Assembly (NCBI GenBank): GCA_031316115.1
Contig: JALDRC010000002.1
Span: 124,001-188,000, forward strand
Reading direction: 5' to 3'
Length of the DNA: 64,000 nt
Source: Nitrososphaeraceae archaeon
Lineage (GTDB): Archaea > Thermoproteota > Nitrososphaeria > Nitrososphaerales > Nitrososphaeraceae
Positions 18,060-34,077 of this stretch are shown piece after piece (position 1 is the stretch's first letter; each line of letters begins with the position of its first letter). A program made the translations under genes and the position numbers. Under the pieces are notes generated by a model. The model searched no databases, was not told where the DNA came from, and saw only the letters and a list, made by a program, of their open reading frames with translations.

Positions 18060-20193
18060 TTATTTTTTAAGTACAGCAGTCAGGGCTAAACTATTTCCTG
18101 GATTGAAATCCACTGACTTTGTGGATATGTTGTACAATGCCAAACCATTGATATCTGAAAGTGTAGTTGGTTTTCCTGAAGCGATTTTGAAACCATTCAT
18201 TTTATCATCAAAAGCTACAGTATATAGAGAATTATATTTTCCAAGATTTTGTATCTTCTTTAACTTTACAATAGCATTTTGATGGTCATTGCCATTCTTA
18301 TCTAATGAAAGTATTACAAATTTCAAACCTGGGTTATTTGGAAGATTTAACAATGCTCTACCATCTTTTAATTGACATGGTTCAAAATCAGCTACAACGA
18401 TAACTCCTCTCGCAGATAATTTTCCTTTCAATTGAATTGAATCCGATTGGGTTGGACATGTATTTTTATCCTTTACTACAACTCTCTTTACTGTTTTACT
18501 GTGACTATCTTTGATGTCATAATTTACTTTAGTAACAAAATTGTTTTCAACATATTGGTTGATTTGTACTGCAATTTGGTTTATAACCTGGGTCACGTCT
18601 CCACCTGCTACAGCAACTTGTGTTGCCGCTTGTTTAATAGCTTGATTGACTTGTTGAGAATTTCCACTACCATATAAAGCCCCAAGATTGCCGATTGCAT
18701 TTGCTAAATCACCTTTTGGGTTATTTGCTACTTGCTTGGCAATTTGATTGATAGTTTGATCCACCTTTCCTCCTGATGACGATGCTACTTGCTTACCAAC
18801 TTGTTCTATGACTTGTTTAACCGAATTGGGTTTTTCATCTTCTGGTACTCCTTTAACTATTTGTTCTGCAGCTTGATTGATTTCTTGTTGTATATCCTTT
18901 CCATACGCAGTCTGTTCTGCTTCTTGTCCTATTTCTTGATCTACTTGCCCACCTGTTGCTGCCTGCTCTGCTAACTGATCAATATCTTGTGTTATATCCT
19001 TACCTGCTGCTGCCTGCTCTGCTATCTGCTCTATATCCTGCTCTACTTGTTCACCTGCTGCTGCCTGCTCTGCTTCTTGTCCTATCTGTTGATCTACTTG
19101 TTCACCTTCTGCTGCCTGCTCTGCTTCTTGTCCTATCTGTTGATCTACTTGTTCACCTTCTGCTGCCTGCTCTGCCTGCTGATCAATATCTTGTGCTATA
19201 TCTTCACCTTCTGCTGCCTGCTCTGCCTTGTCCTATCTGTTGATCTACTTGTTCACCTTCTGCTGCCTGCTCTGCCTGCTGATCAATATCTTGTGCTATA
19301 TCTTCACCTTCTGCTGCCTGCTCTGCCTGCTGATCAATATCTTGTGCTATATCTTCACCTTCTGCTGCCTGCTCTGCCTGCTGATCAATATCTTGTGCTA
19401 TATCTTCACCTTCTGCTGCCTGCTCTGCCTGCTGATCAATATCTTGTGCTATATCTTCACCTTCTGCTGCCTGCTCTGCCTGCTGATCAATATCTTGTGC
19501 TATATCTTCACCTTCTGCTGCCTGCTCTGCCTGCTGATCAATATCTTGTGCTATATCTTCACCTTCTGCTGCCTGCTCTGCCTGCTGATCAATATCTTGT
19601 GCTATATCTTCACCTTCTGCTGCCTGCTCTGCCTGCTGATCAATATCTTGTGCTATATCTTCACCTTCTGCTTCTTGTGCTGCTTCCTGATCGATATCCT
19701 GTCCTAGATCTTCTAGGCCTATTCCTAACTGCTCTGCTTCTTGTCCTATCGATTGATCAATATCTTCTCCTTCTGCTTCTTGTGCTGCTTCCTGATCGAT
19801 ATCCTGTCCTAGATCTTCTAGGCCTATTCCTAACTGCTCTGCTTCTTGTCCTATCGATTGATCAATATCTTCTCCTTCTGCTTCTTGTGCTGCTTCCTGA
19901 TCGATATCCTGTCCTAGATCTTCTAGGCCTATTCCTAACTGCTCTGCTTCTTGTCCTATCGATTGATCAATATCTTCTCCTTCTGCTTCTTGTTCTGCCT
20001 GCTGGTCAATAGATTGAGAATCTGAATCGCCATTTTCTTCATCTTCGTCATTGCTAGCATATACTTGTTCTACAACCGTCATTCCATCCCCATCAAACAA
20101 ATTCGACATTTGAAGAGGAGATGAGGTTACTAACACCAGTGAAATGAGACTTAGAAACGAAAGTATAGATATTCTATCTATAAATCTACTCAT
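18060..20193 (-). CDS. Exported Q-ladder protein with C-terminal beta domain (paralogue 2), one frameshift
   Basis: Read leftwards from ATG at 20193, the protein has a signal peptide (I-S-L-V-L-V-T-S-S) and an acidic stretch. Three 35-residue modules (G-E-D-I-D-Q-S-I-G-Q-E-A-E-Q-L-G-I-G...) follow, then eight or more 17-residue modules. At about 19226 two bases are missing compared with sister units (CTCTGCCTTG versus CTCTGCTTCTTG), ending the frame at 19204. With the two bases restored the frame runs on without a stop to 18060, about 710 residues. The last 140 residues form a non-repeat domain with one Cys pair (T-C-P-T-Q and E-P-C-Q-L), G-V-I-V-V-A-D-F and K-F-V-I-L-S-L-D-K-N-G, probably extracellular and beta-rich. 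The shift may be a polishing error in repeats or a true phase switch. Confidence 0.72.
19040..20010 (-). repeat. Two tandem arrays: 51-bp units and 105-bp units
   Basis: About 19160-19670 holds near-identical 51-bp units (TGATCAATATCTTGTGC as landmark); about 19670-20010 holds three 105-bp units (landmark CCTAGATCTTCTAGGCC). Both are multiples of three and keep the frame. The copies are almost identical, indicating recent expansion or homogenisation. Confidence 0.85.
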
Positions 20194-20455
20194 CGTGAGG
20201 AATTATAAATAAAAGTATTATTAAAGATTTTATGAACTTGGCTAGCTCATTAATTTTCTAGAATATTGTTCTTAATACAAGATTTTAATGATGTAGTTCA
20301 TTTGAATTTACTTTTCACCTTAATTCAAAATATCTATTTTTTAGTAAATCTAGTCAAATCAAAATAATTAAAAAAGTAAATTTTATGGAATTGTTATATA
20401 GTTAAAAGATTTTAAAAAGATTCACCTTAAATATTTCTATAATATTATATCGGTA
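20194..20455. promoter_or_regulatory. Divergent promoter region of two Q-ladder genes
   Basis: A 262-bp region separates the start codons of the leftward and rightward genes. Rightward, TTAAATAT at 20427-20434 lies about 25 nt before ATG 20456, implying a leaderless or near-leaderless mRNA. I see no clear operator palindrome. Shared control of the two genes is inference from the divergent layout. Confidence 0.45.
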
Positions 20456-23443
20456 ATGACAGAAAAGCGCTTAGATAATAGTTCAAAACATCTAAGTTTA
20501 GAACTACGATTAATGTATACAGTTATTTTAGGAATGGCATTAATGTTAATTCCTAATGTTTATGCGACGGTTAATAATACTGCTTTAGCAGATGAATCTA
20601 TTTCTCAAACGATTAATCAGATTGCTAGTCAGGTAGCCAATGCAAATGCAGGAGCAAATCCAACTGCAATCACTCAAACATTAGAACAACTTGCATCGCA
20701 GACAGCGGGAGAAACTTCTGGAGATCTAAACCAGGTTATCAACCAAATTGCTTCTCAAGTTGCGGATAATCCTACAGGTCAAGTTGCTCAAAATATTCTA
20801 CAACAAGCTCAACAACAGGCTTCCCAGGGTTCACTAACTAGTTCAGCCAGTCCAACTTCACCAGCAGGTGCAGTAAATCAACAAATAATTCAGATTGCAG
20901 AGCAGTTGGCTAGTTCTACTGGTGCAGATAAGGGCGCAGTTTCACAGGTAATTAATCAATTAGCTTCACAAGTAGCGAAAGGTGGAGGTAGTTCAAACCA
21001 GGTTATTTCACAAATTGCTGAACAAATAAGTCAGAATCCAGAAGGTTTGGCTGCTCAATCCATAGCACAGATAGCACAGCAGGAAGCAGCTGGAAATACA
21101 GGATTAGCAAACCAAGTAATAGAACAGATAGCTAAACAAAGCGCCTCAGGTGCAAGCCCAATTGCTCAAAATATCATTCAATATGGTTTCCAGTCAGCAG
21201 TTGAAAATAGCGCAGTTCAACAGATAAAACAGGTTGCTACTCAAGTAGCTCAAGCAAATCCGACGACATCTCCAGCCCAAGTAGCTCAGACAATAACTCA
21301 AATAGCTTTACAAACCGCGAATCAAGGAGGAAATCCCTTCCAAGCAATTGAGCAATTTGCTCAACAAATCGCAACAAATCCTAGTGGACCTGTATCTCAA
21401 TCGGTAGCACAATTAGCACAACAACAAGCAAGTGGAGGTAGTCAAGCTGTTGCTGCAAGCAAAGCCATTAAACAAGCTGCTGTGCAGTCAGCTTCGCAGT
21501 CAAGTGGTGGAGGAAAAACTCCAATTGTGCAAAATATTGTTAATCAAGTTATAAATCAGATTGTTAATTGTCCTGAAAATGCTCCATGTAACGTAACTCA
21601 AATTGCAAATCAGGTTGCTGAAGTAACCGGTGCACCTCCAACTTCAGTACAGCAAGCTATTGAACAACTAGCACTACAGACAGCAAAAGGAGGAGGAGAT
21701 GTTTCTCAAACCATCCAACAAATTGCCTCTCAGGTTGCTCAAAATCCAAATGGTCCAGTTTCTCAATCAATTTCCCAAATTGCCAAACAAATAGCTGAAG
21801 GTAACACTGGCGCTGTTAATCAGGCAATACAGCAGGCGGCAGAACAAGTTGCGACAGGTGGAAATATTGATCAAGCTATATCACAAGCAGCTGAACAGGC
21901 TGCTCAAGTACCAGATGTTGATCAGCAAATAACACAGGTAGCACAGCAAATAGCAGAAGCTACTGGAGCCAGTCCAGAACAAATTCAACAGACATTGCAA
22001 CAATTTGCTACTCAATCTGCATCAGGTCAAGGAGCCGGAGCTATTTCTCAAACCATCCAACAAATTGCCTCTCAGGTTGCTCAAAATCCAAATGGTCCAG
22101 TTTCTCAATCAATTTCCCAAATTGCCCAGCAAGTAGCTGAAGGTAACACTGGCGCTGTTAATCAAGCAATAGAGCAAGTAGCTCAACAAGTTGCAACAGG
22201 TGGAAATGTAGAACAAGCAATAGTACAAGCAGCAGTTCAGACAGCGGTTGGCGGAGGAGAAGTTAATCAACAAATAACCCAAATTGCAAATCAGGTAGCC
22301 GGGGCTACAGGGGCTAGTCCGTCTGCAGTACAGCAAACTATTGAACAACTAGCATTACAGACAGCACAAGGAGGAGGAGATGTTTCCCAAACCATTCAAC
22401 AAATTGCAAATCAAGTGGCTGAAGGTGGGACAAATAATCCTACACTCCAATCTATCACCCAAATTGCTCAACAACAATCATATGGAAATAAACAAGGTGT
22501 AACTCAAGCAATAGAGCAGGTAGCTCAACAAGTTGCAACAGGTGGAAATGTTGAACAAGCAATTGTTCAAGCGGCTGAACAAGTGGCTAGTGAAGAACAA
22601 CAACCAACTGAAGAACAACAACCAACTGAAGAACAACAACCAACTGAAGAACAACAACCAACTGAAGAACAACAACCAACTGAAGAACAACAACCAACTG
22701 AAGAACAACAACCAACTGAAGAACAACAACCAACTGAAGAACAACAACCAACTGAAGAACAACAACCAACTGAAGAACAACAACCAACTGAAGAACAACA
22801 ACCAACTGAAGAACAACAACCAACTGAAGAACAACAACCAACTGAAGAACAACAACCAACTGAAAATGGACTATTAGGATTATTACAAGAATCAAAGCAG
22901 AAATCAATAACTGAAACTACAACTCCAGAAGAAACACAGTCTACAACTGGAGAATCAACAACATCTAAAAAGACTGGCTTATTGGGATTAATCCCACAAG
23001 CAGAAACACCACCAGAAACATCTACAACAGAGCAACAGCAGCCTACAGAGGAACAACCAAAACAAGAACAAAAAGCATCTTCCGGTGGAGGAATAATAGG
23101 TCTTCTTCAGCAAGAACCACCTACAGAAACTACTACAACAGAACAACAACCAACTGAAGAACAACAACCAACTGAAGAACAACAACCAACTGAAGAACAA
23201 CAACCAACTGAAGAACAACAACCAACTGAAGAACAACAACCAACTGAAGAACAACAACCAACTGAAGAACAACAACCAACTGAAGAACAACAACCAACTG
23301 AAGAACAACAACCAACTGAAGAACAACAACCAACTGAAGAACAACAACCAACTGAAGAACAACAACCAACTGAAGAACAACAACCAGATGAGGAACAACA
23401 AAACGACGATGAAGAAAAAGCCTCTGAAGATAACGATGAATGA
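20456..23443 (+). CDS. Large exported Q-ladder protein with Glu-Gln-Gln-Pro-Thr tail (paralogue 3)
   Basis: The 995-residue protein has a signal or anchor segment at residues 19-38. About 690 residues of degenerate modules of the type V-x-Q-x-I-x-Q-I-A-x-Q-V-A-x-G-G follow, spaced by Asn/Pro/Gly turns. This is the same Q-x-x-x-Q ladder as its neighbours but with longer, less acidic modules. The pattern suggests a long helical solenoid or fibre. After this come two blocks of about 15 E-E-Q-Q-P-T hexapeptides, each followed or preceded by a G-L-L-G-L-(I/L) or G-G-I-I-G-L-L segment, and an acidic C-terminus. The hexapeptide blocks would be extended, wall-spanning or stalk-like. There is no Cys-rich or enzymatic domain. 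Surface or matrix location is inferred from the signal and composition. Confidence 0.75.
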   Translation: MTEKRLDNSSKHLSLELRLMYTVILGMALMLIPNVYATVNNTALADESISQTINQIASQVANANAGANPTAITQTLEQLASQTAGETSGDLNQVINQIASQVADNPTGQVAQNILQQAQQQASQGSLTSSASPTSPAGAVNQQIIQIAEQLASSTGADKGAVSQVINQLASQVAKGGGSSNQVISQIAEQISQNPEGLAAQSIAQIAQQEAAGNTGLANQVIEQIAKQSASGASPIAQNIIQYGFQSAVENSAVQQIKQVATQVAQANPTTSPAQVAQTITQIALQTANQGGNPFQAIEQFAQQIATNPSGPVSQSVAQLAQQQASGGSQAVAASKAIKQAAVQSASQSSGGGKTPIVQNIVNQVINQIVNCPENAPCNVTQIANQVAEVTGAPPTSVQQAIEQLALQTAKGGGDVSQTIQQIASQVAQNPNGPVSQSISQIAKQIAEGNTGAVNQAIQQAAEQVATGGNIDQAISQAAEQAAQVPDVDQQITQVAQQIAEATGASPEQIQQTLQQFATQSASGQGAGAISQTIQQIASQVAQNPNGPVSQSISQIAQQVAEGNTGAVNQAIEQVAQQVATGGNVEQAIVQAAVQTAVGGGEVNQQITQIANQVAGATGASPSAVQQTIEQLALQTAQGGGDVSQTIQQIANQVAEGGTNNPTLQSITQIAQQQSYGNKQGVTQAIEQVAQQVATGGNVEQAIVQAAEQVASEEQQPTEEQQPTEEQQPTEEQQPTEEQQPTEEQQPTEEQQPTEEQQPTEEQQPTEEQQPTEEQQPTEEQQPTEEQQPTEEQQPTEEQQPTENGLLGLLQESKQKSITETTTPEETQSTTGESTTSKKTGLLGLIPQAETPPETSTTEQQQPTEEQPKQEQKASSGGGIIGLLQQEPPTETTTTEQQPTEEQQPTEEQQPTEEQQPTEEQQPTEEQQPTEEQQPTEEQQPTEEQQPTEEQQPTEEQQPTEEQQPTEEQQPTEEQQPDEEQQNDDEEKASEDNDE
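22592..22861 (+). repeat. 18-bp minisatellite, about 15 copies
   Basis: Perfect or nearly perfect GAAGAACAACAACCAACT units, 18 bp, encoding E-E-Q-Q-P-T. They stay in frame whatever the copy number. Confidence 0.95.
23139..23388 (+). repeat. Second 18-bp minisatellite, about 14 copies
   Basis: The same 18-bp unit as the array about 280 bp upstream, again in frame. Two identical arrays in one gene allow deletion or exchange by recombination between them. Confidence 0.95.
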
Positions 23444-27723: not shown

Positions 27724-29320
27724 ATTTCTGGGTTATAATGTAATCACACTATATGAAATTCTTTAAACTTATTTATGATTTTGTTTGATAAAACCAATCT
27801 GTATAAAATTTTTTTTTGACGAAGTACATAAACATATGATCAGTATAATAAATCGATACGATGGTTGAAAAACTAGACATTAGATATGAAGTAGCATATT
27901 TTAATGATTTAAGTAAAAAAAAGATATTAGAAAAAACATAGTTCTGTTGTGAAATTTATTAAAGATAATTTCTCCAATTGCTTTATAATACTAATTTTTC
28001 ATGGAATTTTCATGGTTTTGATACAACAATTTAACATGTTGCATTATAATTACAATATAACTCAGTTGTATAAAAATTGAATTAAGGAATAAGCAATTTC
28101 ATATTATTAAGAATTAAAATCAGACTATTACTATTTTTTTATTTATCATTAAATATATGATATCATAACTGAACTATGATTTTAAGATAGTTCAAATTAT
28201 CATTAATACGATCAAAAAAATCATTAGTGTAAGATTTTATTATCATTCGTTTTATTGGATTAAATTAGGACATAATCCTAATAGTATCTTTGTGTATAGT
28301 AAAAGCCACATTAACTTAAAATTTTAAACAGCATAAAGCTGAATTTATATTTTATAATTAATTATTTTGACTATAAAGTTAAGTCGAGGTACACAAAATA
28401 GATGTTACATCTCAATACATAAAAAACTAAAACATCTTTCAGATAAATTATCTAGAAAAATTGATCTATTCGATCTAGTGGGACATAGAAATATACAAAT
28501 GTTAGACTGTAAGAATGTAAGAGGAGTTAACATCTTTAAATATTTCAAAGATAATGTACTGATATAGAATTATAAAAGATCATCAACCATTGTGCTAGGT
28601 AGTCTTTATCTCATCCTTAATCAAAATACGAACTTATATTCTTATATTCAAGATAGAAGTATATATAATTAGTAACGTATTACATATCACGAAAATTTGA
28701 ATATGAGACTTTAATATTCAATCTCTAATGATTTTATATATAAAAAGAAGATTGAGTATATTGGTGACGAGTAAATAAAAAACATTACTTACAATAATAT
28801 TTCTCATATTCGTTAATTATTATTTTTAATTAATTGAAATACTGATGAATATTTAGATTACTTGAATTATACGATCTTTGATCGTTTAAGTAATTAAATC
28901 GTTCTTGGGTTATGGACAAACAATAATTGATAATAGAAAAGTCTTTGTTACCTGCAGTCTGATCTATTTATTATAATATTTATATAAGGAATATTAAATG
29001 CAGTCGATCTCATATTTTTTATATTTGTTCTTTAGGAATTTTATTTTTTGTTAGAAAATATTTTTACTATATGATTGCAATATTTATTAAATAAAATCTG
29101 CATTTAAATCTGAAATAACACTGATTTCGGTATAAGATCATTTCGTATATATGACCTATGTTTTAGAACGTGATTTCAGGGTAACGGACACATCAATATC
29201 TGCTTTAAATCATATTATATTGGTATTTGATAAAAATTGATTAGAGATTCATATTGAAAGATATAAACAAATTTTCCCAAAATATATGACAATTAGGTAC
29301 TTTAACCATTTAAAAATATT
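27724..29320. other. Long gene-poor stretch
   Basis: About 1.6 kb. It contains a 26-codon ATG frame at 27861-27941 (M-V-E-K-L-D-I-R-Y-E-V) that may be the beginning of a lost gene. A 66-codon TTG frame at 28367-28567 is basic and of doubtful coding value. There is also an imperfect inverted repeat at 28857-28894. Nothing else is evident. Confidence 0.35.
28857..28894. repeat. Imperfect inverted repeat (hairpin)
   Basis: ATTACTT and AAGTAAT bracket ACGATC-TTT-GATCGT, giving an inner 6-bp perfect stem and an outer 7-bp stem separated by an asymmetric bulge. It has no T-run. It may be a protein-binding palindrome or remnant of a mobile element end. Confidence 0.5.
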
Positions 29321-29509
29321 ATGCAAAAGGTTAATAGAACACCTGAAGAAATAGGTTCATCTCCTAGAGAAGAAGAATCTCGTCTTAAAACACAAAAAAA
29401 GATAAACTCAGAAACAACCAACGGTGATAGAGAACTTGAAGAAAGAGGTTCAGCTCCTAGAGAAGAAGAGGTTAAACAAAAAAACCTTCTGAAAGATACA
29501 AAAAGTTAA
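29321..29509 (+). CDS. Small charged protein with an internal duplication, 62 aa
   Basis: The product repeats E-E-I-G-S-S-P-R-E-E-E and, about 30 residues on, E-E-R-G-S-A-P-R-E-E-E, with Lys/Gln-rich stretches between. It is likely disordered or helical and has no hydrophobic core, signal peptide or Cys. Its stop lies about 40 bp before the predicted left boundary of the IS110-type element, so the insertion apparently did not cut it. The function is unknown. Confidence 0.45.
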   Translation: MQKVNRTPEEIGSSPREEESRLKTQKKINSETTNGDRELEERGSAPREEEVKQKNLLKDTKS

Positions 29510-29587
29510 CATGAATGTAATCGCAAAGAATGTATTCTGCTGTGTTGAATACATGTAAAAGTCTTTTCCTGTTGTTTATTCTCTTAT

Positions 29588-29730
29588 CCAACTAGCAAAC
29601 CCCTTGTTATGCATGACCTATCTACTACGATAAGGTCTTGTGTGTTGAATGGAGATATGTGTTAGCTGCTGTATATGTGAGCCATCAATAGAGCTCTGAT
29701 AGATGTTTGCAGCTTTGTCTGGCTAGTTGG
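29588..29730 (+). ncRNA. Candidate bridge RNA (seekRNA) of the IS110-type element
   Basis: CCAACTAGC (29588-29596) and GCTAGTTGG (29722-29730) form a 9-bp stem enclosing the non-coding region upstream of the transposase. Inside are a hairpin at 29615-29637 (GACCT...AGGTC) and a possible 6-bp stem AGCTGC/GCAGCT (29664-29669 with 29709-29714). Three segments match element boundaries. TGTGTTGAAT at 29641-29650 is identical to the left flank 29541-29550. GTGAGCCAT at 29677-29685 matches the reverse complement of 30998-31006 in 8 of 9 positions. ATAGATG at 29699-29705 is identical to the right end 30990-30996. Order and polarity (left target guide, right target guide, left donor guide) fit published IS110 bridge RNAs. 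I could not place the right donor guide. Confidence 0.65.
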
Positions 29731-29766
29731 TATAGTTAGTATCATCACAATAAAAAAAGAAAGGAG

Positions 29767-30876
29767 GTGAAAAAGAGAATAGAAAATAAAAAAGAATCAA
29801 ATAATAATATCAACGATAACGATTACTACATCGCAGTAGATATAGGAAAGAGAAATTGTGTTGTATGTATTACCTATAAAGATGGTTCCATAGTAGAAGA
29901 AACAAAATATGATAATACTCTACAGGAAGCAGAAAGATTTGCTTCTAATTTAGATAAAAAATATGATAGTAAAAGATGTCATGCAGTATGTGAATCAACA
30001 GCGAATATGTGGCTCAAAACATATGAAGCATTTGAAAACCATGGAATAGATATTAAACTTGCTAATCCAATGAAGACAAAAGCAATTGCTGAAGCGAAGA
30101 TAAAGACAGATAAACTGGATGCTAGAATATTAGCACATCTACTAAGATCCGATTTGATTGTAGAATCATATATTGCTCCAGATAAGGTAAGAGAAGATAG
30201 ATCTCTACTACGACTGAGAATAAACCTAGTCTCGGATAGAACAAGAGTTATGAATAGAGTACATTCTCTACTGGATAAGTATGATCAGAAATGCAAGTAT
30301 TCTCACATATTTGGTGTAAATGGGATAAAATGGCTAAAGAGTATAACACTGAAAGGTAATGATCAGATTCAACTTGCGAACTACATTCACAGTATTGAAT
30401 TTCTAAATTCTGAAATCAAACAGATTGAAAAGAAAATATCTCTTGAAGCATCAGCCAATGAAGATGTAAGGATACTGATGAGTATGATAGGAATAGATTA
30501 TTTTTCTGCAATGCTCATTTGTTCTGAAATAGGAGATATATCAAGATTCAGTACAGCAAGTAAACTTGTATCCTGGTGTGGATTGTGTCCAACTGTACAT
30601 CAATCTGGTAACTCAATTTATAGGGGTAGAATGAAAAAAGATGGAAATAAAAAGATAAACTGGATTATGATACAGGCTGCCAACACTGCATCAAGAACTG
30701 ATGACAGACTGAAAAAATACTATAAAAAGATAGCAAAAAGACACGGACATCATGTAGCAATAACTCACGTTGCAAACAAGATAATAAGAATTATCTGGGC
30801 AATGCTAAAATACAAACAACTGTACAATGAAAGGAAAACGGAACAGTATGAGAGAATATTTAAGAGGATCCGATAG
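29767..30876 (+). CDS. IS110-family transposase (DEDD recombinase)
   Basis: The 369-residue protein has an N-terminal RuvC-like DEDD domain: Asp in Y-I-A-V-D-I-G-K-R-N (about 25), Glu in A-V-C-E-S-T-A-N-M-W (about 79), and the Asp pair in K-T-D-K-L-D-A-R-I-L (about 117-122). A coiled-coil spacer follows. The C-terminal Tnp_20 domain has S-W-C-G-L-C-P-T-V-H-Q-S-G-N, whose Ser is the expected nucleophile, and the W-I-M-I-Q-A-A-N helix. Such enzymes insert elements using a bridge RNA. A full Shine-Dalgarno GGAGGTG (29763-29769) overlaps the GTG used as start here. The codon at ideal spacing is ATA at 29779, so the start may have been ATG. Either way the DEDD domain is intact. Confidence 0.9.
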   Translation: MKKRIENKKESNNNINDNDYYIAVDIGKRNCVVCITYKDGSIVEETKYDNTLQEAERFASNLDKKYDSKRCHAVCESTANMWLKTYEAFENHGIDIKLANPMKTKAIAEAKIKTDKLDARILAHLLRSDLIVESYIAPDKVREDRSLLRLRINLVSDRTRVMNRVHSLLDKYDQKCKYSHIFGVNGIKWLKSITLKGNDQIQLANYIHSIEFLNSEIKQIEKKISLEASANEDVRILMSMIGIDYFSAMLICSEIGDISRFSTASKLVSWCGLCPTVHQSGNSIYRGRMKKDGNKKINWIMIQAANTASRTDDRLKKYYKKIAKRHGHHVAITHVANKIIRIIWAMLKYKQLYNERKTEQYERIFKRIR

Positions 30877-31046
30877 TAAGATAAAGACGATACATCACTG
30901 TATCGTAGCCCAGATAAAGTAGTATAAGACATGACACAACAGCAGCAGTAATATTTGGATAAAGGAAATAATCCGAGAAGACTTTTACATAGATGCATAG
31001 CTCACTACTGCTAACCTATTTAGCTAACTTGTTATAGTCATATTAT

Positions 31047-31942
31047 GTGAGAAATTGGAAGAATTACAATGAATCTCTAGTAAGAAGAGGAGAGATATTA
31101 CTTGATTTTGATGTTATTGATAACTGGTCTATTGAATTAGGAAAGATGAACAATGGTAAGGAGGGTAGAAAGTTTGTATATCCAGATTCCTTTATCAAAT
31201 TACTTAGCAAGTATGATAATACTTTCATTTACCATATAGACAGACTGAAGGCGTAGTACGGGAACATGCCTCTAATACATTACCATCAATTCCTCATTAT
31301 AGTAACATCAATAGAAGAATGAATAGACTGGATATCAAAATAAATGAGGATGACATGAAATCCAGTTTACATGATGATAATTTTGTAATTGCAATTGATT
31401 CTACTGGTATTAAAGTTACAAACCGTGGTGAATGGATAAGACACAAGTGGAATGTCAAGAGAGGTTACCTAAAGATACATGTTGTTGTAGATATCAAAAG
31501 TAAGAGAATTTTATCATTACAGGTAACCAGTGAAGAAGTACATGATGGAAAAGTACTACCAAAATTAGTTGAGGATATAACAATAAAACAGAATAAGGAA
31601 CTAGATATGACTATAGCAGATGGTGCCTATGATAACAACAAGATATTTCAATTTCTATCATTTAGAGCAATTCAACCAGCAATAAAGGTTAGAAAGAATT
31701 CCAGATGTAGGAAAACAAATCATTACCTTAGAAACAAGACAGTAACGATGCAGAAAAATAATTTACAACAATGGAAAGATAGCGTAAGCTATGGACAGAG
31801 ATGGATTGTAGAAACTGTCTTTTCCTGTATCAAGAGAATGTTTGGAGAATATGTTACTGCTATTAGGTTAGAGAATATGATAAAGGAAATAATGCTAAAA
31901 GCATCGTTGTATAATTGGTTTCAGAGAATAACTATCACATAA
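31047..31942 (+). pseudogene. IS5-family transposase with one frameshift
   Basis: Frame 1 (31047-31256, GTG start) gives R-N-W-K-N-Y-N-E-S-L-V-R-R-G-E and F-V-Y-P-D-S-F-I-K-L-L. Near 31215 the homology shifts by one base to H-L-P-Y-R-Q-T-E-G-V-V-R-E-H, which runs into the frame of the 207-residue ORF from 31319. That part keeps the DDE residues: I-A-I-D-S-T-G-I-K-V, I-A-D-G-A-Y-D-N and I-V-E-T-V-F-S-C-I-K-R. Without correction no full-length enzyme is made. It directly abuts the right side of the IS110-type element. I could not define its terminal repeats. Confidence 0.78.
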
Positions 31943-32353
31943 TTATCAATTTCAGTATGATAGATTGATTTTCTAAATGAGTTGTGCGAAAGCAATGTAT
32001 TCAAATATTTCTAGAAAATTACCCAAAAAACAATTGCATTTAAAGGTTAGAACAATATTAACGACTTTCCATTCCAATACAAATATATTTTTAACATAAT
32101 TTTAAAAATTATCATACACTATCTTAAATACCAATATCAATTATTAGAACATTAAATAATTTTATTTATGAGGAATATAGAATTCGAGATTCTTAAAAAA
32201 TAAATCTTTATCATATTGAAAATTTGGGTCATTTTACATATTGAAAGTGGCTAATCGAGATATTTTTTAAATACGATATTATTATTTTTGAATGTAAATA
32301 TAGTAGACTTGGGTACAATTTATCTTATTTGAAACGATTCAACTGATAACTAC
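31943..32353. other. Intergenic
   Basis: Presumably includes the right end of the IS5-type element (GTTGTGCGAAAGC near 31981 is a candidate terminus). No ORF. Confidence 0.35.
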
Positions 32354-32983
32354 TTGTTAAATTATAATCCATTCTATAAAATAATAAAATATAAATATCA
32401 TTTTGAGATATCCAATCTGGCTAAGTCCGTGTCTCTTAATTTTCTATATATTTCTATTTTATTTGTATTACAAATTGTAATATGTCTCCCTGTAGATTTT
32501 ACTTTTTTAGTTTTAGGTCAAACCGATTCAAAAATAATTAATTCCTCATCTAGCTTGGATGTCTTCAATTCTATAACACAATCTATCCTTAATTTTACTC
32601 GAAAGTTTGAATATGTTATCAAAATCGATTCAACTCAAATTTTCCCCAATGACAATGTTAGGAATGAGGTTTTAAAAAGCAATAAAAGTATTGAATATAA
32701 TATCCCATCATTAGAATATGAATTATTAGGATTTCAGATAATTGCACAGAACATACAGGTAGTGACAGAACCTTTTCACCACTATAATGGTGATTTTAAT
32801 AAGATAAGAATTAATTTTCCTGTAATGAAGGCTGAAAACGTTAATGTAAAAAATACAATCTTAGAGTTATCATATGATAACATAGATTTAAGCTCTACGT
32901 TTCTTATTTATGATTCTCTGGAAGACGTATTTTTCATCCATATTCCAATTTTCGTAGCTTCACAATATCTTCCAAAACCATAA
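32354..32983 (+). CDS. Membrane-anchored or exported protein, 209 aa, unknown
   Basis: A TTG start is the only one upstream of a strong hydrophobic segment at residues 28-55 (F-L-Y-I-S-I-L-F-V-L-Q-I-V-I-C-L), which is an anchor or signal. The remaining 150 residues are hydrophilic, have several N-x-S/T sites and alternate beta-type hydrophobics (Y-V-I-K-I-D-S-T-Q-I-F-P). This suggests a small extracytoplasmic beta domain. The sequence ends F-V-A-S-Q-Y-L-P-K-P. No known family is recognised and no neighbour suggests a role. Confidence 0.55.
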   Translation: MLNYNPFYKIIKYKYHFEISNLAKSVSLNFLYISILFVLQIVICLPVDFTFLVLGQTDSKIINSSSSLDVFNSITQSILNFTRKFEYVIKIDSTQIFPNDNVRNEVLKSNKSIEYNIPSLEYELLGFQIIAQNIQVVTEPFHHYNGDFNKIRINFPVMKAENVNVKNTILELSYDNIDLSSTFLIYDSLEDVFFIHIPIFVASQYLPKP

Positions 32984-34077
32984 GTGATGCTGTCAATTAA
33001 TACATTAATAATATAAAGACTTCTGAACTTTGAAATATTTAATCCATTATGTTTAGGAGGTTTTTTCGATCTATGAAAGGCTCGTTTTAAATAATTGTTG
33101 AAGATTAAATTAAGATTTAATTTCTCTATTGTTTATAATTAAATTATGTAAGTATATCAAGGATATATAAAAAGATCTTTAGTAATTTATGATTTTAACT
33201 TTCATTCAATATCTCCTCAAGTCATTATAAGATAATTTTATCATAATTGGCGAATAGAATTTATTCTCTAAATTTTGCATTATTTAGATAAATGAGTAAT
33301 TTGATCTAATTCTTACTTGTATTAGATTAAAATTATTTTAGGGATGTTGAAAGAGATGATGATCTACAAAACCTCGATTTGTAAACCCTAATAACATGCT
33401 TAATGATTATACCTAATACAAGATTTATTTTAGATTACGAATAGTGAGATTCTTATCTTAATAACGGATTCTACTAGTATAAGCTGTATTTACATTATAC
33501 TTTTAAAGAAATAAAAAAATTATCTATTACAAAATGATATTTCAGAAACACAACACCAAAATCCATAAATGATTTCAAAACTTAAATTTATAACCTTAAT
33601 CGCTGGAGATCATTATCAATTATAATTTAGATTTTGCATAAAGAATAAAATGCTTTTTATCTCTTAGACCAGGATCGCTCATAATTGTCCGTTTAATTCA
33701 TTCCAAAAGAGGAAAATTAGTTAATTTTGTTTCTTTTATTAATACTATGCATTACATTTAGAAGGTAAGATCACAAAGGATATGATTACTAAAAAAAATA
33801 CAATAAACATCAAGAATCTAATTTCTAACAGATCTTAACAAAATATATTTATACAAAATTAACCAACTAATACTTTTAGTTAACTAATCTTAATATTGAA
33901 TATACATATTTTGTATCGATCTACACACACAGAAGATCGTCTTCCTGTTTCACTTGATTTTTATATTTTTTTAGATAGGCCATTAATTTGATATCGTAAT
34001 TGTGATGTTAATACATAATTAGTAATACAAATTTTAAGCAAACTCTTAATATACCTGTATAATAAAGTTACTTAACA
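32984..34077. other. 1.1-kb gene-free region upstream of the ATPase operon
   Basis: AT-rich, without a supported ORF. A small perfect inverted repeat CGATCT...AGATCG (33917-33939) lies about 140 bp before atpK and is too weak to call an operator. The promoter proper is listed separately. Confidence 0.4.
34045..34052 (+). promoter_or_regulatory. TATA box of the ATPase operon
   Basis: TTAATATA is centred about 29 nt upstream of the atpK start codon. At the usual archaeal TATA-to-start distance, transcription would begin at or a few bases before the ATG, giving a leaderless mRNA. Confidence 0.45.

Follow-up and report, generated by a model that had tools for sequence, protein, structure and literature searches.

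An archaeal IS110-family element with a predicted upstream bridge RNA whose guides match the terminal repeat of a resident IS5-family insertion sequence

What kind of mobile element occupies positions 29546-30993 of this archaeal DNA, and does an RNA that it encodes specify its insertion site? In the window, the whole 64,000-nucleotide stretch analysed here, the original prediction had placed an IS110-type element with a bridge RNA upstream of its transposase. The element is an archaeal IS110-family (DEDD) transposon: its transposase reading frame of 369 codons contains both IS110-family domains, DEDD_Tnp_IS110 and Transposase_20, and keeps all the active-site residues known from IS621 (D25, E76, D115, D118 and S280), bearing out the family assignment. 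The start of the transposase is uncertain, the only in-frame start near its ribosome-binding site, within 29755-29775, being the GTG inside the Shine-Dalgarno-like GGAGGTG. The best trees place the transposase outside the IS4321/ISEc11-type proteins, with a joint clade not rejected (AU p 0.1). Membership of TIGR-Tas was considered and dropped, the match to NF052498 being weak (34 bits vs a cut-off of 100). The element, its gene and its surroundings are laid out as follows.

29546-30993, + strand: IS110/IS1111-type element, 1448 bp, counting one copy of the core TG at the left; its limits taken from where the flanks of the copies diverge and from its nested position in an IS5-family insertion sequence (IS)
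29546-29552, + strand: left terminal extension TGAATAC, 7 bp, bases 1-2 being the core TG
29553-29565, + strand: left subterminal inverted repeat ATGTAAAAGTCTT
29767-30876, + strand: DEDD transposase, 369 aa (PF01548, PF02371, NF033542, IS621 alignment)
30978-30990, - strand: right subterminal inverted repeat AAGACTTTTACAT, perfect, 13 bp
30991-30995, + strand: right extension AGA (3 bp), then the second core TG (30994-30995)
29538-31994, + strand: IS5-family IS hosting the insertion, 1009 bp minus the insert
29530-29537, + strand: target-site duplication ATGTATTC (8 bp) of the IS5-family IS, second copy at 31995-32002

The ends of the IS110-type element could be fixed because it is nested in an IS5-family IS that is itself bounded by an 8-bp duplication. 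It lies in the left terminal repeat of this host, which without the insert measures 1009 bp, vs 1011 and 999 bp for intact copies, and closes perfectly against them; the insertion therefore hit the dinucleotide TG at bases 9 and 10 of the left end of the IS5. The host transposase is frameshifted into two pieces, 31047-31256 and 31319-31942 (NF033579 match). Searching the host genome and 200 relatives for copies of the element returned many left ends and several right ends, several copies having one end only because the assemblies of the relatives are fragmented; the host genome holds one full-length copy, its other copies being remnants. Right ends are constant through ACATAGA-TG and diverge beyond. 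Taking TG as core (29546-29547 and 30994-30995) makes the extensions 7 bp long on the left and 3 bp on the right. The core had been expected to be AT, a choice that fails here, since right ends continue CAT, CTT, CCT, TTT or GGT while TG stays constant, and since it is TG that yields the 7- and 3-bp extensions and the perfect closure of the excised IS5 host. TTGAAT, taken as a constant flank in first alignments of five copies from the host's own genome, was likewise given up: wider sampling showed that the flank is the terminal repeat of an IS and that AAT is part of the element itself. The perfect 13-bp subterminal repeat of IS1111 type had been recognized correctly.

Intact copies of the targeted IS5-family IS start with TGCTGTGTTGCACAACTC, TGCTGTGTTGCATAACTC, TGCCTTGTTGCCTAACTC and similar sequences, and insert-free sites read TGCTGTGTTGCATAACTC (L113) and CGGTGTTGTATAACTCACTACTG (L128). 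A pattern search with the joined flanks returned one near-empty site (L128, two mismatches), the remaining matches being due to chance. The empty site proposed as a check in the original prediction agrees, in its inferred form, with intact IS5 copies, but its boundary is TG, not AT. The junction of an excised circle is predicted to read TTTACATAGA-TG-AATACATG (also written ACTTTTACATAGA-TG-AATACATGTAAAAG).

The structured non-coding region upstream of the transposase reads as a predicted bridge RNA, with fold, covariation and guide registers all favouring this part of the original prediction. Its main parts are listed below.

29588-29730, + strand: body of the predicted bridge RNA, with stem P1, CCAACTAGC (29588-29596)/GCTAGTTGG (29722-29730), closing it
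29600-29654, + strand: target-binding loop, with stem P2 (29600-29603/29651-29654) and hairpin P3 (29615-29618/29634-29637), from covariation
29665-29713, + strand: donor-binding loop, with stem P4 (29665-29669/29709-29713) and hairpin P5 (29679-29682/29693-29696), from covariation

Positions 29585-29735 fold better than shuffled sequence (z-score -3.2). RNAalifold on a MAFFT alignment recovered P2, P3 and P4 only, with little covariation, so the five helices were aligned and compared by hand across the Nitrososphaerales elements. Paired cells amounted to 100/104 in P1, 59/64 in P2, 46/48 in P3, 65/70 in P4 and 55/64 in P5. Compensatory changes occur in all five helices, many of them in P1, the enclosing stem, which exists as originally described: its true pairing scored 76/80, vs a shuffled mean of 33 and a shuffled maximum of 64. 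Together the helices delimit two loops, one for the target (P2, P3) and one for the donor (P4, P5). A covariance model built from 15 copies retrieved further members, some with transposases at only 51-61% identity; an Rfam search of 28000-33000 gave no match.

Candidate guides were located by an unbiased scan, in which every RNA register, sense and antisense, was scored against each flank and each end in the 12-13 elements that have both ends. For each flank and end one register stood out, giving these assignments.

29606-29613, + strand: right target guide GTTATG followed by the core complement CA, antisense to TG-CATAAC; no other of the 390-400 registers stands out
29641-29647, + strand: left target guide TGTGT and core TG, same sense as the left flank 29541-29547
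29648-29650, + strand: possible handshake guide AAT, identical to the bases that follow the core at the element's left end
29670-29673, + strand: right donor guide TGTA, antisense to the left-end bases TACA (29550-29553)
29699-29705, + strand: left donor guide ATAGA and core TG, same sense as the right end 30989-30995

The left flank matched the left target guide register in the same sense at 60/78 positions across 13 elements (next best 36), in agreement with the left guide first proposed. The ten identical bases then reported, TGTGTTGAAT at 29541-29550 and 29641-29650, are indeed present, but they are not ten nucleotides of flank: they comprise five of flank, the core TG and three equal to the element's own left end, the match running to ten because AAT follows that end. 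The right flank matched a register 5' of hairpin P3 in antisense (52/78 across 13 elements, next 35; 51/72 in the first set of 12, next 34). The right end matched a register in the 3' side of the donor loop in the same sense (63/65 across 13 elements, next 36). ATAGATG had been noticed at 29699-29705, where we place the left donor guide, and this position stands, whereas its second copy lies at 30989-30995 and not at 30990-30996. This guide shifts in step with the right end in relatives (ATGAG, ATGGA, ATAGG). The right donor guide, absent from the original prediction, is only 4 nt long; its four bases, on the 5' side of that loop, matched the left end in antisense at 51/56, the best of 120 registers (shuffled mean 34.6, from shuffles that, like the permutations used for guides, ignore relatedness among elements). 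A scan for this guide anchored on the other guides had failed because the spacing varies, and anchoring on stem P4 resolved the register. At the handshake candidate, a two-nucleotide match to each element's own left end covaries (25/34 vs a mean of 17.4). In both loops, the order is right guide in antisense, then left guide in sense.

The agreement between guides and flanks is imperfect in places. The right flank of the window element has one mismatch to its own guide (TGCATAGC vs TGCATAAC; flank TG-CATAGC), and several other copies fail to match their own flanks, with scores at the left of 2/6 in L044, 1/6 in L056 and 3/6 in L083, and at the right of 2/6 in both L047 and L075. Decay could account for these copies, as could targeting in trans. 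In L083, the flank ATCTCTTG fits the guides of L057 and L089 from the same genome.

The two target guides can be joined into the site that they spell, a terminal repeat of another IS, which the original prediction had not identified. For the window element this is TGTGTTGCATAAC (TGTGT-TG-CATAAC), which has one exact match in its own genome, at an IS5-family end (G000:C14:82121). L012 spells TCTGTTGCGTAAC and L052 spells CTTGTTGCCTAAC, both exact IS5 ends in their genome, G004, and L044 spells TGTGTTGCACAAC, found exactly in its own genome, G002. In genome G058, L057 and L089 spell TCTCTTGCGTAAT; a 17-base pattern around it occurs there at 83 sites with at most 2 mismatches, vs 4 for the reversed control, and 26 of the 83 carry no mismatch. 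The end carrying TCTCTTGCGTAAT is, in G004, that of a DDE_Tnp_4 transposon about 1042 bp long. In the L020/L035 lineage the guides read GGCTCTG; GGCTCTGTNAANTTAAG forms the inverted end of a resident element, and the protein of that element is similar to IS6-family transposases (E 4e-29, a score below the curated cut-off). In several genomes, then, the guides predict a target identical to the terminal repeat of another IS resident there, suggesting that the guide RNA directs the element to the end of another mobile element. Taken together, sequence comparison establishes the ends, the nesting, the RNA structure, the four guide registers and the identity of the target. The element reading overall is strongly supported by such comparison, and we regard the whole reading, an IS110-family element with an upstream bridge RNA, four guides, a TG core and an IS5 end as target, as very probably correct.

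The registers were derived on the Nitrososphaerales set, and only a haloarchaeal set is separate from it. Six haloarchaeal plasmid elements, found through a Natrinema match, share the same layout, with 7- and 3-bp extensions, a TG core and an upstream RNA. When the registers were carried over to them, with guide strings located by eye, left guide and left flank agreed at 30/36 positions and right guide and right flank at 30/36 (combined permutation P 0.004, with relatedness ignored in the permutation). Two Natrinema copies that are 94% identical have left guides CTGCTC vs AGGCTC and left flanks CTGTTC vs CGGCTC, each guide being close to its own flank. The check on other copies that had been proposed therefore came out as expected, their guides tracking their own flanks. 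L162, on a Halobellus plasmid, apparently has the core AG rather than TG at its left end, its right end and its left donor guide; as no position could be assigned to its target guides, the permutation test leaves it out.

Could the guides have been assigned otherwise? The original prediction took GTGAGCCAT at 29677-29685 as the right target guide, with an AT core and the left guide 5' of the right, as in the IS110 group, an order with which the upstream position of the RNA would agree. The segment is complementary, at 8 of 9 positions, to ATAGCTCAC in the window copy, although this flank is 30997-31005, one base away from where it had been put. Yet it is nearly constant among relatives whose right flanks differ, it scored at background in the register scans, and no register near 29677-29685 matches right flanks in other elements; moreover, GAGC (29679-29682) within it pairs with GCTC (29693-29696) in the conserved, covarying hairpin P5, of which the segment makes up half. 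Other copies lack AT at the supposed core and have TG, or a matching AG, at both ends. The scans instead put the right guide at 29606-29613, 5' of the left guide, and because of this position and of the TG core the order is not that of IS110 but its reverse, as reported for IS1111 seekRNAs. We consider an GTGAGCCAT guide so improbable that the match is best read as a coincidence.

It might also be supposed that the transposase recognizes the IS5 repeat through protein-DNA contacts, that guide-like matches descend together with conserved targets and that the RNA does something else, such as regulation. The target family is similar in the closest copies, so likeness between flank and RNA could there stem from common descent. 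Against this, guides change with flanks within one genome and between the near-identical Natrinema copies, they change again between lineages aimed at IS5, IS6 and DDE_Tnp_4 ends, and all four bridge-RNA guides sit in fixed registers, which leaves recognition by the protein very unlikely. A different doubt concerns the window copy itself, which may be a dead relic that no longer makes its RNA, the guide matches recording past activity only. Its being the one full-length copy among remnants, the frameshift in its IS5 host and the mismatch between right guide and flank all point that way, whereas the uninterrupted reading frame with its five catalytic residues, the perfect 13-bp repeats and the intact RNA fold do not; a relic is a serious possibility, if on balance a rather doubtful one.

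The reading that we prefer, an RNA-guided element aimed at IS5 ends, suggests the following mechanism. The element would be a cut-and-paste IS110-family transposon of an archaeal lineage, whose left non-coding end would give rise to a bridge RNA (about 29588-29730) with two loops. In the target loop, the 5' right target guide would pair with the target's right half on the top strand and the 3' left target guide with its left half on the bottom strand, the two meeting on the core TG. The 5' right and 3' left guides of the donor loop would act likewise on the joined ends of the excised circle, and the DEDD recombinase would exchange DNA at TG. The target so programmed, TGTGT-TG-CATAAC, is the terminal repeat of a resident IS5-family IS, the kind of repeat in which the element sits. 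Expression of the RNA, the circle intermediate, strand exchange and present-day activity would be expected by analogy with work on IS621 and seekRNAs.

Several derivatives were also observed. L054, L057 and L083 (all in G058) and L047 (G055) are 531-567 bp long and have both ends and a full RNA without the transposase, of which the first three keep small remains of the gene. Such derivatives carry different guides within one genome, and may be guide cassettes acting in trans. L084 (G036:C369), of roughly 100 bp, has both ends and only the right-target-guide half of the RNA; the flank on its right, CACAAT, agrees with this guide at 6/6 positions. L092 (G036:C653) runs, past the target-loop hairpin, into ACAACAAACTAGATCGG, which repeats its own left flank in inverted orientation. 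In L053 (G002:C271), the RNA is broken just after the donor loop by the end of an IS5-type element, TGCCTTGTTGCAC, of the kind targeted by its own lineage. To the left of the window element, 29321-29509 holds a 62-aa reading frame with a repeated PREEE motif, and a similar sequence lies beside another left-end remnant (L061), at a distance of 55 kb on this contig. At 19204-23443 the window has long genes of low complexity that contain many almost identical repeats (AEQAAEGEDIAQDIDQQ, TEEQQP).

More broadly, in the two published groups the position of the RNA is linked to the order of the guides and the length of the repeats, and the split between them is explained by the RNA moving between ends. 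The present lineage uncouples these traits, joining the guide order and ends of IS1111 to an IS110-like RNA position, so the end that carries the RNA does not dictate the order of the guides. We tentatively propose, with somewhat less than even confidence, a Nitrososphaerales and haloarchaeal bridge-RNA lineage of this make-up that lives mainly in the terminal repeats of other transposons, with guides retuned to the IS ends common in each genome and transposase-less derivatives as spare guide cassettes in trans. The elements compared here also provide a natural record of retargeting, in which guides track the ends of resident transposons. Because natural variation allows all four guides to be read and checked, bridge recombinases from archaea, possibly salt-tolerant and with their target, donor and core known, become directly testable.

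How does the element compare with known systems? In the wide sense it belongs to the IS110 family, with the family's domains and D, E, D, D, S active site and, as judged from sequence, guides that are complementary to the target and donor of the element itself. Subterminal inverted repeats of 7-17 bp, usually 11-13 bp, define the IS1111 group, and those found here are perfect and 13 bp long. IS1111 elements have terminal extensions of 7 bp on the left and 3 bp on the right (PMC11187229), as do the present element (TGAATAC, AGA) and its haloarchaeal relatives. In the IS1111 seekRNAs of ISEc11, ISKpn4 and ISPa11, the top-strand-complement guide lies 5' of the bottom-strand match (PMC11187229), the order seen here, and the GL-P----SG motif is shared too (here GLCPTVHQSG). 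By contrast, the RNA of IS1111 lies downstream of the transposase gene, whereas here it precedes it (29588-29730 vs 29767-30876), and the transposase has 369 aa vs 330-350 aa in that group.

The left-end RNA upstream of the transposase, its target and donor loops, the DEDD and serine active site, the dinucleotide core and a possible handshake guide beside it recall instead the IS110 group in the narrow sense (IS621, ISEc21); the IS621 bridge RNA has handshake guides (PMC11208158). However, IS621 and ISEc21 have the left guide, then the right (PMC11187229, PMC11208158), IS621 with LTG 50-58, RTG 77-80, LDG 123-130 and RDG 157-165 (PMC11208160, PMC11208158). Unlike in IS621, the order here is reversed in both loops, the core is TG rather than CT, and the subterminal repeats, absent or very short in the narrow group, are long.

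The unusual combination of IS1111-type repeats and an upstream RNA in an archaeal host, already pointed out in the original prediction, is thus supported. A literature search that took in few subscription papers and no preprints found no paper on an upstream RNA combined with IS1111 guide order and ends. Exceptions in RNA position have been reported among IS1111-like elements, ISMtsp17 having an upstream non-coding region and ISHvo10 and ISAcp5 long ones on both sides (PMC11187229), so the combination has a precedent in layout; by their description, these resemble the present element in having an upstream non-coding region with subterminal repeats. No guide assignment was found for the three in PMC11187229. 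ISHvo10, haloarchaeal by its name, may belong with the haloarchaeal relatives found here. Separately, L025, L028 and L029 are archaeal sister elements, also of the IS110 family, in which the left end is short and a long structured region follows the gene; a 9-bp subterminal repeat is seen in L028 and L029. The side of the RNA differs between these and the present lineage, clades that are placed close together. Insertion into the terminal inverted repeats of another mobile element also has parallels, going by titles cited in PMC11208160: IS4321 and IS5075 insert in the ends of the Tn21 family, and IS1383 in IS1384 repeats. As far as those titles tell, the present element differs from them in its hosts and in that its target would be read from an upstream RNA and changes with the guide among archaeal lineages.
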